Source: Bryobacterales bacterium
GTDB taxonomy: Bacteria > Acidobacteriota > Terriglobia > Bryobacterales > Bryobacteraceae
Assembly (NCBI GenBank): GCA_003170295.1
Contig: PNAJ01000057.1
Span: forward strand, 62,001 to 126,000
Length of the DNA: 64,000 nt
Direction: 5' to 3'
Every line of letters starts with the position of its first letter. Position 1 is the first letter of the stretch. The position numbers and the translations under genes are program-made. Below are positions 2,784 through 58,639 of the stretch, one piece after another. The notes under the pieces were generated by a model. It was not told the DNA's origin, searched no databases, and saw nothing but the letters and a program-made list of their open reading frames with translations.

Positions 2784-4112
2784 CTACCACAGCGACAACG
2801 GAACCTTACCCGGGCTGAAGTTCAGGCCGACGGTCGCCCGATATCCCGTGTGCTTGTAAATGAGGTTTTCGATCGCCTGATAGCGGTAATCGTATCGCGC
2901 CACGAAGTGCAGGGATTTTGGCAAGCTGTACGTGAACCCGGCGCCGCCATACCCCGTCCGGTACGGTTGGATTCCCTGACCGAGGGTGGAGAGGCTGCTA
3001 TATCCGCCGCTCACGCCGATATTCACCTTGTGAATGCCTGTATAGCTGTAACTGGCGTCGCCAACGTCGCTCTTCGAAGTGAGATAGACACCATTACCGG
3101 GGACCACCATTTGTCCATAGGAAAAGTTTAAACTCGCGGTCTTGAATCTTCTGATCAGCGTCGCCTGTCCGCTGGGGTAGTAATCTACCCGGTGAAAGGC
3201 CTGAATCGACGTCGTCTGTCCCAACAATGCGGCGACCACGGGACTCAGCGCCACCGACTGCAATCCCGATACTTCCGCGTGGAACGCGCCGGCCCGCACC
3301 GTCAACGACCACCGGCGCCCAATGTTCGTGCCATAGAAAAACTCTCCTGTATCGATGTCCGCTTGGCCAAACGCCTTTGGAAAATCGAAATGCTGGCGCT
3401 GATAAGTGAAGCCCACGGAGGTATTTTTGGAGAGTTTGTGCTCCACCGAGCCGCGCGCGTTATATCCTTCCACCCCCACCAGAAAGGACGATTGGCGCCA
3501 TACTTCAAATCCTTGCCCCCCGAAGCTATAGCTGGTGCGCGCCGATTGCATCAGGGTAACGTCCAGCCCGCCTTGCACGTAGGAGGAGCGATTATCGAAC
3601 AACAGGCTGCTCGCCTGATTGACCTCATTCGAAGTGAAGGTGGGAGAGATGGCTCCGATTGAGCCAAGGCCGTTGGAAAAAGTGCCGGCCAATAGCTGGC
3701 CATTAAAAACCACCCGGCGCGACTTCTGCCATGTAAAGCCAAGGGCCAGCGCCTGGTCGATGGTATCGTAAGTGGAATTGCCGTTATACTCCCGAAACGA
3801 GCCGCGGTAATCGAGTCCCAGCATCGCCCTCTTCCACGAATGCGAGCCATAGGCACCCACCGTCGCTTCCACTCCCGCGAGTCCGTTTATAGTGACCAGA
3901 TTGCCCTTGGAATCGAGAGAAACAGGTTGAACGCTGGAATCGTAAACGCCATCGACACCGGCGTAAAATCGAAGGTCGACCTGTTGCCCGCTGCGAGTGC
4001 CAGCCCCGCTCGCGCCGCTCGAGAGCACGCCAGGTCCCAAATAGCCTCCTCCCATTTGAGCGAAAGCGGCGGATGAGATACAGCAGGCAAGCGCGATCAG
4101 TCGTTTTTTCAA
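2784..4112 (-). CDS. predicted outer-membrane beta-barrel protein
   Basis: Signal peptide MKKRLIALACCISSAAFAQ, then alternating aromatic beta-strand pattern. Confidence 0.6.
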   Translation of the reverse strand: MKKRLIALACCISSAAFAQMGGGYLGPGVLSSGASGAGTRSGQQVDLRFYAGVDGVYDSSVQPVSLDSKGNLVTINGLAGVEATVGAYGSHSWKRAMLGLDYRGSFREYNGNSTYDTIDQALALGFTWQKSRRVVFNGQLLAGTFSNGLGSIGAISPTFTSNEVNQASSLLFDNRSSYVQGGLDVTLMQSARTSYSFGGQGFEVWRQSSFLVGVEGYNARGSVEHKLSKNTSVGFTYQRQHFDFPKAFGQADIDTGEFFYGTNIGRRWSLTVRAGAFHAEVSGLQSVALSPVVAALLGQTTSIQAFHRVDYYPSGQATLIRRFKTASLNFSYGQMVVPGNGVYLTSKSDVGDASYSYTGIHKVNIGVSGGYSSLSTLGQGIQPYRTGYGGAGFTYSLPKSLHFVARYDYRYQAIENLIYKHTGYRATVGLNFSPGKVPLSLW

Positions 4113-17050: not shown

Positions 17051-17299
17051 TCAGCGATAAGCCTCTCTACGGTTGCGGACGCGGAGGACGCGGATTTTTT
17101 CTTCATCCTGATCGAAACGGATGCGATAGTCGCCGACGCGGAGGCGGTACTCGGCAGGGTTAATGCCCTGGAGCTTTTTCACGTCTCCAACGGTGGTTTG
17201 TGCAAAACGCTCAACGGCTTGCTTGATGCGGCGAGCGCTGTCTTTATCGAGCTTTTCCAAACCCTTAAGGCCTGTCGCCGTCCACTCGACTTGCTTCAC
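17051..17299 (-). CDS. type II toxin, RelE/ParE family
   Basis: LEKLDKDSARRIKQAVERFA...KKLQGINPAEYRLRVGDYRIRFDQDEEKIRVLRVRNRREAYR. Confidence 0.88.
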   Translation of the reverse strand: MKQVEWTATGLKGLEKLDKDSARRIKQAVERFAQTTVGDVKKLQGINPAEYRLRVGDYRIRFDQDEEKIRVLRVRNRREAYR

Positions 17300-17303
17300 T
17301 ACG

Positions 17304-17555
17304 TTAGTCTAATCCCAGGCGGCGCATGGCTTCGTCATGCGGAATCCCCTTGCCGCCGTTGCGTTTGAGCCACTCATGCGCCTCAGCCACTTCCGCTTTT
17401 TCCTCGTCGGTCTCGGGCTCGTCGTCGATGGGCGCGTTGAGAAGGGCTAGAGTGACGGGGTCTAGGATCTTTTCGAGCAACCCGACCGCTGTCGAGAGTT
17501 GAGTCTCTGGTATATGGTCGATCAGTTCATGGGCGTGCTGGCGCGTCTCGCTCAT
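17304..17555 (-). CDS. cognate antitoxin-like protein of RelE/ParE module
   Basis: Directly precedes the toxin gene by 4 bp; C-terminal EWLKRNGGKGIPHDEAMRRLGLD antitoxin-like tail. Confidence 0.7.
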   Translation of the reverse strand: MSETRQHAHELIDHIPETQLSTAVGLLEKILDPVTLALLNAPIDDEPETDEEKAEVAEAHEWLKRNGGKGIPHDEAMRRLGLD

Positions 17556-55513: not shown

Positions 55514-55729
55514 ATGACGATCGAACTCAACTCGGAACAGCAGCGCGTGGTCGATCTCGCGATTCAGTCTGGCGCATACCGCGACTCCAATGAGGTGATT
55601 GCTACGGCGCTATCGATGCTTGCTGAGGACATCGAAGATGGGGCCGTTTCAGAAGCGCGCGCGCATGAGCCGCGATCTACGCTAGCCGAGGTCGAGGCGG
55701 AATTGCGGGCGCGCGGCAAGTTGAGGTGA
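55514..55729 (+). CDS. ParD/CopG-type antitoxin, no adjacent toxin
   Basis: MTIELNSEQQRVVDLAIQSGAYRDSNEVIATALSMLAE. Confidence 0.75.
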   Translation: MTIELNSEQQRVVDLAIQSGAYRDSNEVIATALSMLAEDIEDGAVSEARAHEPRSTLAEVEAELRARGKLR

Positions 55730-55786: not shown

Positions 55787-56614
55787 TCAGCCTTCGGATG
55801 CCGAATGCCTCACGCAGCGCAAGGCCGATTGCTCCCGCCAGTACTCATCGCCGACAGGAAGCCAGCCGTGAGGTAGTTTTGCTGTCGCGTTTTCATTGTG
55901 TATCACGATGAATTCGTTCCCCGGCTCGTAGGGGGTATTGACCCAATCTGAGGCACTGTAAATCAGCGCGCTCACATGGGCGTACGCAGGGTCAAGAAAA
56001 ATGTCTGTCTTGACTCGCGCGCCCTTAGCCTTCTGAACCCCATCCCTGTGTTCGAGAGAATAGCCGGCGTGAGCGCCGGTGCTTTTGTTCACGTCCAGGA
56101 CTAGATAGCCAACGCCGAGGGCGGCGCGAACAATTCGCGGAATGGGTTGCTCCAAAAACTGCGTGTAGAGCATACATCCAGAAATCGCGATGACCGCAGC
56201 CTGTTCCTGCTGGATGATCTTGTCCTGAATATAGCCCTTGATGATCCTGGATTTCGTTTCGATGGCGTTTCGTAAGCGGAGGATGAAATCGTCAACGGGC
56301 ACCTCATACGACCCGTTTCTTGGCGGGGCTTCGAGTGCATCCTCGCCACTGCCGGGGTAGGCAACAACAGCTTCAATCCAAACATCAGGGTTTGTCGCGC
56401 GCAGGTCAGGGCCTCTTTGCTTCTTCTTAGTGCGATTCTGCTCAACAATGTTGATTCCAGAGCGCCGGAGAGCGTGCGCTAGGTATAGTTCCCAGAAAAC
56501 GGACGGTGGCATATCCGTCATCGCATGATGGGAGGCGTTCGCGTCTAAGAAATGACAGCATTCTTGCCGAAGCTGCTCACGAAACTTGCGGCCCTGTGAT
56601 GTCATTTCCAACAT
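55787..56614 (-). CDS. hypothetical protein, possible PD-(D/E)XK-like nuclease
   Basis: FWELYLAHALRRSGINIV...RGPDLRATNPDVWIEAVVAYPG: ordered E...D...ExA pattern. Confidence 0.4.
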   Translation of the reverse strand: MLEMTSQGRKFREQLRQECCHFLDANASHHAMTDMPPSVFWELYLAHALRRSGINIVEQNRTKKKQRGPDLRATNPDVWIEAVVAYPGSGEDALEAPPRNGSYEVPVDDFILRLRNAIETKSRIIKGYIQDKIIQQEQAAVIAISGCMLYTQFLEQPIPRIVRAALGVGYLVLDVNKSTGAHAGYSLEHRDGVQKAKGARVKTDIFLDPAYAHVSALIYSASDWVNTPYEPGNEFIVIHNENATAKLPHGWLPVGDEYWREQSALRCVRHSASEG

Positions 56615-56765
56615 AACTTAAGAACTATGATAACGCGGTCGGCGAAGGAGTCGCCTCCCCTTCGCCCCTTGCGCAAGTCGTGGAAAAATCGGGGGAGGTT
56701 GCTGCCCCGGTGTCCGGTTTCCTGGGTCGATACGTGTCATGATGACAAATGGGGGCAAGTTACCG

Positions 56766-57203
56766 ATGTCCACTTTGGGGATCGTTGGTGAAGAGATCGA
56801 CAAACAAGCGGCGCTGGCTAGCGCGGCACTCCAAGGCATCGCGGGCGTTGGGCCGCGTGCTGTCCTCGATATGCTGGGGCCGTACTCGGCGGTACTTTAC
56901 ATTGCCGAGCGCGTTGTCGAATCCGATGTTTTCAACGCGGAACTGGTTCGGTCTCTCCACTCCAAAGTGCTTCCTCTGGAGCGCATGGCTGACAGCATGC
57001 TCGCGGACGCCAGGCAGCGGGGTTATTTCGACGATCCAGATGTAGCCGAGCCGCTTCATTGGCTGGAGACCTGCAATGAGCAAGTGAAGGACTGCATGGT
57101 TGCGCTGGAATCCATGCTGGACCCGCAACTCGACGACCTTATGAACGCGGCGGTTGAGGAGCACCAGCGGGGTGAGACGGTTCCACTGGAGTCGATTCGT
57201 TGA
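56766..57203 (+). CDS. hypothetical protein, candidate antitoxin paired with downstream RelE/ParE toxin
   Basis: C-terminal AAVEEHQRGETVPLESIR resembles the tail of antitoxins encoded before RelE toxins; start approximate. Confidence 0.5.
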   Translation: MSTLGIVGEEIDKQAALASAALQGIAGVGPRAVLDMLGPYSAVLYIAERVVESDVFNAELVRSLHSKVLPLERMADSMLADARQRGYFDDPDVAEPLHWLETCNEQVKDCMVALESMLDPQLDDLMNAAVEEHQRGETVPLESIR

Positions 57204-57215
57204 ATGGGTCGTTGA

Positions 57216-57482
57216 GTGAGCCGCTACAGCCTTTCTGTATCCGGGTCAGCTGCAAAATACCTGGATCGCTGCGACGCGCCGACCCGTGAGCGGTTGCAAC
57301 AGAAGCTCGAAAAGCTAAAGGTCGGTCCCTTCGATAGGCAGAATTCGAAACCCCTGAGGGGCAGGAAAGAGCAGAGATCGGCGAGGGTCGGAGACTTTCG
57401 CATCCTCTTTCAGGTGCACGGCCTTGATATCATCGTTGTTGAGATTGGCCCTCGCGGCGACATATACAAGCACGGGCAGTGA
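57216..57482 (+). CDS. type II toxin, RelE/ParE family
   Basis: SRYSLSVSGSAAKYLDRCDAPTRERLQQKLEKLKVGPFD...LRGRKEQRSARVGDFRILFQVHGLDIIVVEIGPRGDIYK. Confidence 0.88.
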   Translation: MSRYSLSVSGSAAKYLDRCDAPTRERLQQKLEKLKVGPFDRQNSKPLRGRKEQRSARVGDFRILFQVHGLDIIVVEIGPRGDIYKHGQ

Positions 57483-57521
57483 TCGTTTTGCTCATGGTTC
57501 TCGCGTACTGAGAGGACGATC

Positions 57522-57872
57522 ATGGCGAGGAAATTATCCGAATTATTTCAGGCCACGCGCCTGAAGTGCATGAGATCCGAAGATATCAAGAACAGGCAAT
57601 GGACTGACGCCGAACGGCAAGCGATGCGCCGTATTTCCGAACGTCAGGCGGCTGGAAAAAGCTCGCGCGTTAGCCGGGACATCCCTCGGCTGACCGATTC
57701 GCAGTTGGCGGCCATGGTCCGGCTTCGAGATGCCCGGAAGCCGAAAGTCGCGGTGAGCGTGCGTCTTGACCCGCCGGTACTCGATTGGTTGAAATCTAAG
57801 GGCGAGGGGCACTTGACTCGCATCAACGACATCCTTACAAGGCTGATGGAAGCGGAGCGCCGGACGAGATAG
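57522..57872 (+). CDS. BrnA-like antitoxin-family protein
   Basis: C-terminal RKPKVAVSVRLDPPVLDWLKSKGEGHLTRINDILTRLM resembles BrnA DNA-binding region; no BrnT recognised. Confidence 0.55.
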   Translation: MARKLSELFQATRLKCMRSEDIKNRQWTDAERQAMRRISERQAAGKSSRVSRDIPRLTDSQLAAMVRLRDARKPKVAVSVRLDPPVLDWLKSKGEGHLTRINDILTRLMEAERRTR

Positions 57873-58090: not shown

Positions 58091-58288
58091 ATGCACGAGT
58101 CACACAGGAGAGCGGCGGAGCAGCACGAACTCGCGGCACACGCCCATCGCACGGCGGCCGAGCACAATGAAAAAGGGGATAACCCGACGAGTAACTGGCA
58201 TGCCGAACGGGCGCTGGAGTATTCGAATCACGCTTACGAACTTGCCAAGGATGCGCACACGAAATCCGGGCAGATGGTGACGCTTTAG
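58091..58288 (+). CDS. small His/Ala-rich protein, paralog of the next gene
   Basis: HRRAAEQHELAAHAHRTAAEHNEKG. Confidence 0.6.
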   Translation: MHESHRRAAEQHELAAHAHRTAAEHNEKGDNPTSNWHAERALEYSNHAYELAKDAHTKSGQMVTL

Positions 58289-58291
58289 TTT

Positions 58292-58639
58292 ATGTCTACA
58301 CGCTATAACGACGGATCCCATTACGAGAATCACCAACGAGCCGCGGAGTTGCACGACCTTGCGGCGCACGCCCATCGCAGCGCGGCCGACCATCGGGGAA
58401 AGCAGGATCACGAGACCGGGCCGGAACATTCACGACACGCTCTGGAGCACTCCCAGAGAGCTCATGAGCAGAGTGCGGAGACGCATCACGCTGCGACGAC
58501 GGAGCATGGCATCGCCCAGTTCGGCCATAGTGAGATCGCGGCCCGCGCGCATGAGCTTTGGCGGGCGAGAGGCTGTCCGGAGGGATCCTCGCAAGCGGAT
58601 TGGTTCGACGCCGCGGAAGAATTACGAGGGCGCAGCTGA
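58292..58639 (+). CDS. His/Ala-rich protein with C-terminal DUF2934-like domain
   Basis: HQRAAELHDLAAHAHRSAADHRGKQ...IAARAHELWRARGCPEGSSQADWFDAAEEL. Confidence 0.65.
   Translation: MSTRYNDGSHYENHQRAAELHDLAAHAHRSAADHRGKQDHETGPEHSRHALEHSQRAHEQSAETHHAATTEHGIAQFGHSEIAARAHELWRARGCPEGSSQADWFDAAEELRGRS

Follow-up and report, generated by a model that had tools for sequence, protein, structure and literature searches.

The window, the whole 64,000-nucleotide stretch of DNA analysed here, from a soil acidobacterium of the Bryobacterales, carries three small genes in close succession: a gene for a protein termed P1, a gene for a RelE/ParE-type toxin, and a brnA-like gene (Table 1). All three, and the gaps of 12 bp (P1 to toxin) and 39 bp (toxin to brnA) that separate them, lie where an earlier note on this DNA had placed them; the first open reading frame is real, but the 146 residues given for it include the stop codon. 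A second in-frame ATG is located upstream of the P1 start, at 56739, but the purine-rich ribosome-binding stretch just 5' of ATG 56766 is common to P1 relatives. Close relatives have no P1-toxin gap, their toxin GTG coming immediately after the P1 stop; P1 of the window is without nine residues found in relatives, and its junction has 12 additional bases. A palindrome in the leader, GTCATgATGAC, was considered as an operator and set aside, as it occurs in the window and one relative and is missing in the others.

Table 1. Features of the P1-toxin locus and the adjoining brnA gene.
Feature	Position	Strand	Details
Leader common to P1 relatives	56734-56765	+	gtgtcatgat...ggggg...accg; contains the P1 ribosome-binding stretch; from upstream alignment
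P1	56766-57203 (including stop)	+	ATG 56766, stop 57201-57203; 145 aa
P1 C-terminal helix and tail	57123-57200	+	PQLDDLMNAAVEEHQRGETVPLESIR; residues 120-145; presumed toxin-binding segment
P1-toxin gap	57204-57215	+	atgggtcgttga; 12 bp; from junction sequences
RelE/ParE-type toxin	57216-57482	+	GTG start; 88 aa
brnT remnant	57485-57607	+	last 40 codons and stop; overlaps the brnA start
BrnA-like third gene (brnA)	57522-57872	+	116 aa

The assignment of the second gene to the RelE/ParE toxins is borne out by a match to PF05016 (E = 4.5e-8; 34 bits, against a curated Pfam cut-off of 23) and, in PHROGs, to phrog_1213, RelE-like toxin (3.6e-15). The nearest solved chains are 1wmi_A, 2khe_A, 3g5o_B (Rv2866), and 9g12_A (RelE), and residues R54, R57, R62, R80, and Y84 align with E. 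coli RelE. PF05016 comprises both mRNases and gyrase poisons (Gerdes, PMC11980606). Because the basic residues and the C-terminal R..Y are kept, and because the nearest solved relatives include RelE types, the toxin is tentatively read as an mRNase more probably than a gyrase poison.

P1 matches no family in Pfam or NCBIfam even at E = 10 and none in PADLOC or PHROGs, and searches of plasmids, phages, and IMG/VR with P1 or relatives as queries gave no match. Matches of the profile of the diverse alignment to helical and designed PDB proteins were taken as an effect of composition. The AF2 model of P1 (pLDDT 79.7, pTM 0.67, with the lowest certainty in the tail) has helices at residues 3-23, 30-52, 58-84, 94-117, and 120-134, a short end helix, and no strands. 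The order of helices is predicted to be alike in L033, a distant relative that is 23% identical to P1 (helices at 10-30, 35-59, 64-90, 97-124, and 126-140; no strands; pLDDT 85.5, pTM 0.74), each of the two models being built on 7-8 sequences. In both models we read helices 1-4 as a four-helix bundle. Foldseek searches of the models against PDB and BFVD gave no significant match; RHH, Phd, and HTH antitoxins were absent among the PDB structural matches listed, none of which was significant. The first reading of P1, as a protein of no recognised family that is not Phd, RHH, or HTH, is thus upheld by the family and PDB searches and by the predicted all-helical fold, structure prediction having been proposed as a check at the time. 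By sequence or fold P1 fits no known class of RelE/ParE antitoxin (RHH RelB/ParD, Phd/YefM, HTH, Unstab_antitox), and a recognised DNA-binding part is absent.

The end of P1, AAVEEHQRGETVPLESIR, had been likened to the tail of RelE-partner antitoxins, and rightly so; the resemblance is beyond chance, and RGE is retained in most of the distant relatives. Across the superfamily described below the C-terminal helix and tail, with the ending A..E..RGE...L, is the most conserved stretch, and related toxins have partners of HTH and Unstab_antitox type that show the same tail pattern. The partners of related toxins in the same bacteria are short Unstab_antitox-like antitoxins or an antitoxin (L066) that by eye looks like an HTH protein. 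The C-terminal segment of RelB wraps its toxin (PMC11980606); since antitoxins of related toxins have similar ends, the tail would be the toxin-binding part of P1, as in RelB.

Relatives of P1 were sought in sets of 61, 399, and 237 genomes. Close relatives (66-84% identical) occur in scattered Bryobacteraceae genera, and P1 itself is patchily distributed, being present in 11 of 237 Bryobacteraceae genomes. Of the genomes searched, no other one from the genus of the window contains a close relative, and the nearest named relatives are from Bryobacterales MAGs. Every close relative sits directly 5' of a homologous RelE/ParE toxin gene or a remnant of one, so that synteny of the pair is conserved, and no locus has a second small gene between the two. 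Intact close toxins are 68-72% identical to that of the window. Estimated dN/dS ratios of about 0.11-0.29 for P1 and 0.26-0.37 for the toxin indicate purifying selection. Several copies have decayed through an in-frame stop (L020) or an internal deletion (L024/L032 and L025), which suggests that the module is dispensable; in others the toxin is gone or truncated (L022/L030 and L023/L031). Similarity between cassettes starts within approximately 30-95 bases upstream of P1 and stops within about 3 bases of the toxin stop codon, which argues that the mobile unit consists of two genes; the surroundings are unrelated, and flanks upstream of the leader mostly diverge. At one locus (L018/L028) the cassette immediately follows a short antitoxin gene that is truncated, a second instance of a module abutting a damaged one; at another (L035) a 92-nt direct repeat flanks it on both sides. 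The L035 repeats (2462-2553 and 3623-3714; 92% identical) correspond to the end of a host gene.

Profiles from P1 relatives, together with a search from the toxin side, identified distant proteins of the same plan in several Acidobacteriota families (L033, L034, L039, L059, L065, L068, L086-L090, and L107, spread over several families of the class), with the common segment E..D...LE..LDP. In profile-profile comparisons, for which E-values are those of single comparisons, the groups N33 (L033, L034, L039), N59 (L059, L065, L068), and N86 (L086-L090) match one another at 1e-12 to 1e-21, or at 4e-12 to 2e-19 minus the last 24 residues. P1 matches the three groups at 2e-9 to 4e-6, and removal of the tail weakens this to 1e-3 to 7e-6; the controls gave 0.009 or worse with shuffled P1 columns and 0.12 or worse with reversed ones. 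Antitoxin-side searches yielded 20 loci, of which 17 have a match to a toxin profile directly downstream, remnants included (E 4e-5 to 9e-49); this set of 20 leaves out L059, L065, and L068, which were found through the toxin, and the L091-type branch; background stretches scored with the same profile gave no match (best 0.6). The L091-type branch (L091/L101, L104, L109) consists of helical proteins resembling P1 that connect with N33 at 3e-8, followed by a gene for a different RelE-like protein of ~130-140 aa that has only weak PF06296/HigB matches and the motif SVWKYR...G(F/Y)R..AY...YPF..(Y/D)TH. The branch is placed in the superfamily tentatively, its direct connection with P1 being weak. 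Weak genome matches (L005-L009, L037, L040, L092-L095, L106) were rejected as chance matches or unrelated proteins. It is conceivable, at less than even odds, that the antitoxins of the superfamily are modular, each with a four-helix domain that does not bind DNA and an interchangeable tail that binds the toxin. Related bundles would then act with two or more kinds of toxin (ParE-like ones and the ~130-140-aa RelE-like proteins), and toxin release would depend on a mechanism different from RHH/HTH autorepression.

The third gene matches PF14384 BrnA (E = 1e-12). It had been described as BrnA-like without any BrnT, which is not entirely correct: the final codons of a brnT gene lie in the gap behind the toxin and run into brnA. 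This remnant begins two bases after the toxin stop, has an in-frame TGA at 57509-57511, and is 60-70% identical to intact BrnT of related genomes (tblastn, E 2e-12 to 6e-11), an intact relative matching PF04365 at 4.9e-20. The remaining part of brnT is found nowhere else in the window, nor does the window have an intact brnT overlapping brnA; the BrnTA module is broken. In related genomes with the neighbourhood read, brnA lies behind brnT or a damaged brnT, the end of which meets or overlaps the brnA start. The remnant, and the brnT-brnA order elsewhere, argue that the third gene is no part of the P1-toxin system; by its sequence it is an orphan RHH antitoxin of a separate, broken brnTA module, a bystander to P1 and its toxin. 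Arrival of the cassette may have caused the truncation of brnT.

The P1 loci show one hallmark of a type II module, a small gene just 5' of a gene for a known toxin, the two being kept as a pair in unrelated surroundings. With a probability of about 0.8, P1 and the toxin form a two-gene type II toxin-antitoxin cassette in which P1 is the antitoxin, with a four-helix N-terminal domain, and brnA is a bystander. P1 is very probably the antitoxin of the toxin and of a type absent from the family libraries searched, given the conserved pairing, the toxin-binding-like tail, the absence of a Phd/RHH/HTH match, and the all-helical model that has no significant PDB counterpart; the earlier note's proposal of a possible new antitoxin fold is to that extent supported. 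P1 would be made first, presumably in excess, with the toxin start close behind the P1 stop, and would neutralise the toxin by wrapping its C-terminal helix and RGE tail around the 88-aa protein. Free toxin would most likely act as an RNase that, as RelE does, cleaves mRNA on the ribosome. The N-terminal bundle would replace the usual Phd/RHH/HTH domain, and dimerisation, an unrecognised kind of autorepression, and sensing are candidates for its task. The cassette would be mobile, adjoining in the window a brnTA module at the point where brnT is truncated.

Three other explanations were weighed. The earlier note proposed a three-gene system with the third gene as a separate DNA-binding repressor, which would amount to a three-component system like paaR2-paaA2-parE2 with the regulator last, P1 neutralising the toxin and BrnA repressing the operon. 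The same strand and short gap of brnA agree with this, BrnA could bind DNA as an RHH-type antitoxin, and P1, having no recognised DNA-binding domain, leaves room for a separate repressor. Even so it is very improbable, as brnA is absent next to the cassette at all other P1-toxin loci, cassette homology stops at the toxin stop, and brnA relatives come after brnT, of which a truncated copy lies alongside in the window; the search for conserved three-gene synteny thus found the pair conserved without the third gene.

It is very improbable, too, that P1 is a conserved accessory protein, such as a chaperone or protease adaptor, with the real antitoxin elsewhere or missing: helical bundles are common among chaperones and adaptors, and superfamily members have weak, sub-threshold matches to FlgN, but P1 bears a tail found on other antitoxins, has no second small gene between it and the toxin in any locus, and occupies the antitoxin position, the antitoxin-toxin order being typical of PF_ParE (PMC11980606). 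Antitoxins diverge fast, and the MJ1172-like antitoxins, a new family, proved to be diverged RHH proteins (PMC2701414), so P1 might be a highly diverged antitoxin of a known class (degenerate RHH, HTH, or Phd) missed by sequence methods; the lack of strands in both models, of RHH, Phd, or HTH proteins among the PDB structural matches listed, and of any family match at E = 10 makes this very improbable.

As a two-gene cassette with P1 as antitoxin, the module is like RelBE and ParDE (PF05016 toxins) in its antitoxin-toxin order, tight spacing, basic toxin residues with a C-terminal R..Y, and an antitoxin that ends in a toxin-binding-like tail; it differs in that the N-terminal part of P1 is a predicted four-helix bundle instead of RHH and that P1 is about twice the usual size. 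Modules of Unstab_antitox-like antitoxins (PF09720, just under the cut-off) and ParE in the same bacteria have homologous toxins and a similar A......G...L tail, but their antitoxin is 72 aa long and its N-terminal half is unrelated to that of P1. BrnTA (PF04365/PF14384) accounts for the third gene and, with brnT broken, is not functionally in the cassette. PaaA2 has no evident DNA-binding domain, in which it is like P1. The system to which it belongs, paaR2-paaA2-parE2 (PMC8630535), likewise has a ParE toxin, but P1 loci have no conserved separate regulator, and P1 is a 145-aa protein that is predicted to be folded. Helical-bundle antitoxins are also represented by HEPN of MNT-HEPN, which is probably not DNA-binding (PMC2701414), and by TomB (PMC5155140), but these have different toxins, and no sequence or significant structural match to P1 was found.

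In the open-access literature, to which the search was confined, no description of the P1 family was found; the partners of RelE/ParE toxins there are RHH, HTH, Phd/YefM, MqsA-type, and similar proteins, and helical antitoxins are described for other toxins only (HEPN, TomB). P1 is most probably an antitoxin of type II whose N-terminal domain is undescribed. Toxins of the RelE/ParE type rank with the commonest in bacteria, and the surveys consulted describe antitoxins for them that bind DNA through RHH, HTH, Phd/YefM, or similar folds; a class of helical antitoxins missing from curated libraries would explain toxins with "hypothetical" partners and would make regulation without a classical DNA-binding antitoxin testable. 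The locus also presents one module adjoining, and apparently truncating, another.

Other small genes of the window were recorded. The gene adjoining the cassette (55787-56614, reverse strand) encodes a 275-aa protein that matches PADLOC PD-T7-5 (phage defence; 8e-11) and has no Pfam or NCBIfam match. A 71-aa ParD-like antitoxin (55514-55726, forward strand; TIGR02606 7e-5, under the cut-off) has no recognisable toxin alongside. A separate toxin-antitoxin pair at 17051-17555 on the reverse strand has a ParE toxin (PF05016, 3.7e-10) preceded by a partner of 82-83 aa that has no Pfam match. Beyond brnA, two adjacent forward-strand genes (58091-58288 and 58292-58639) encode small proteins with His/Ala-rich starts and share a 70-nt repeat (77% identical); the second of these proteins has DUF2934 at its end.
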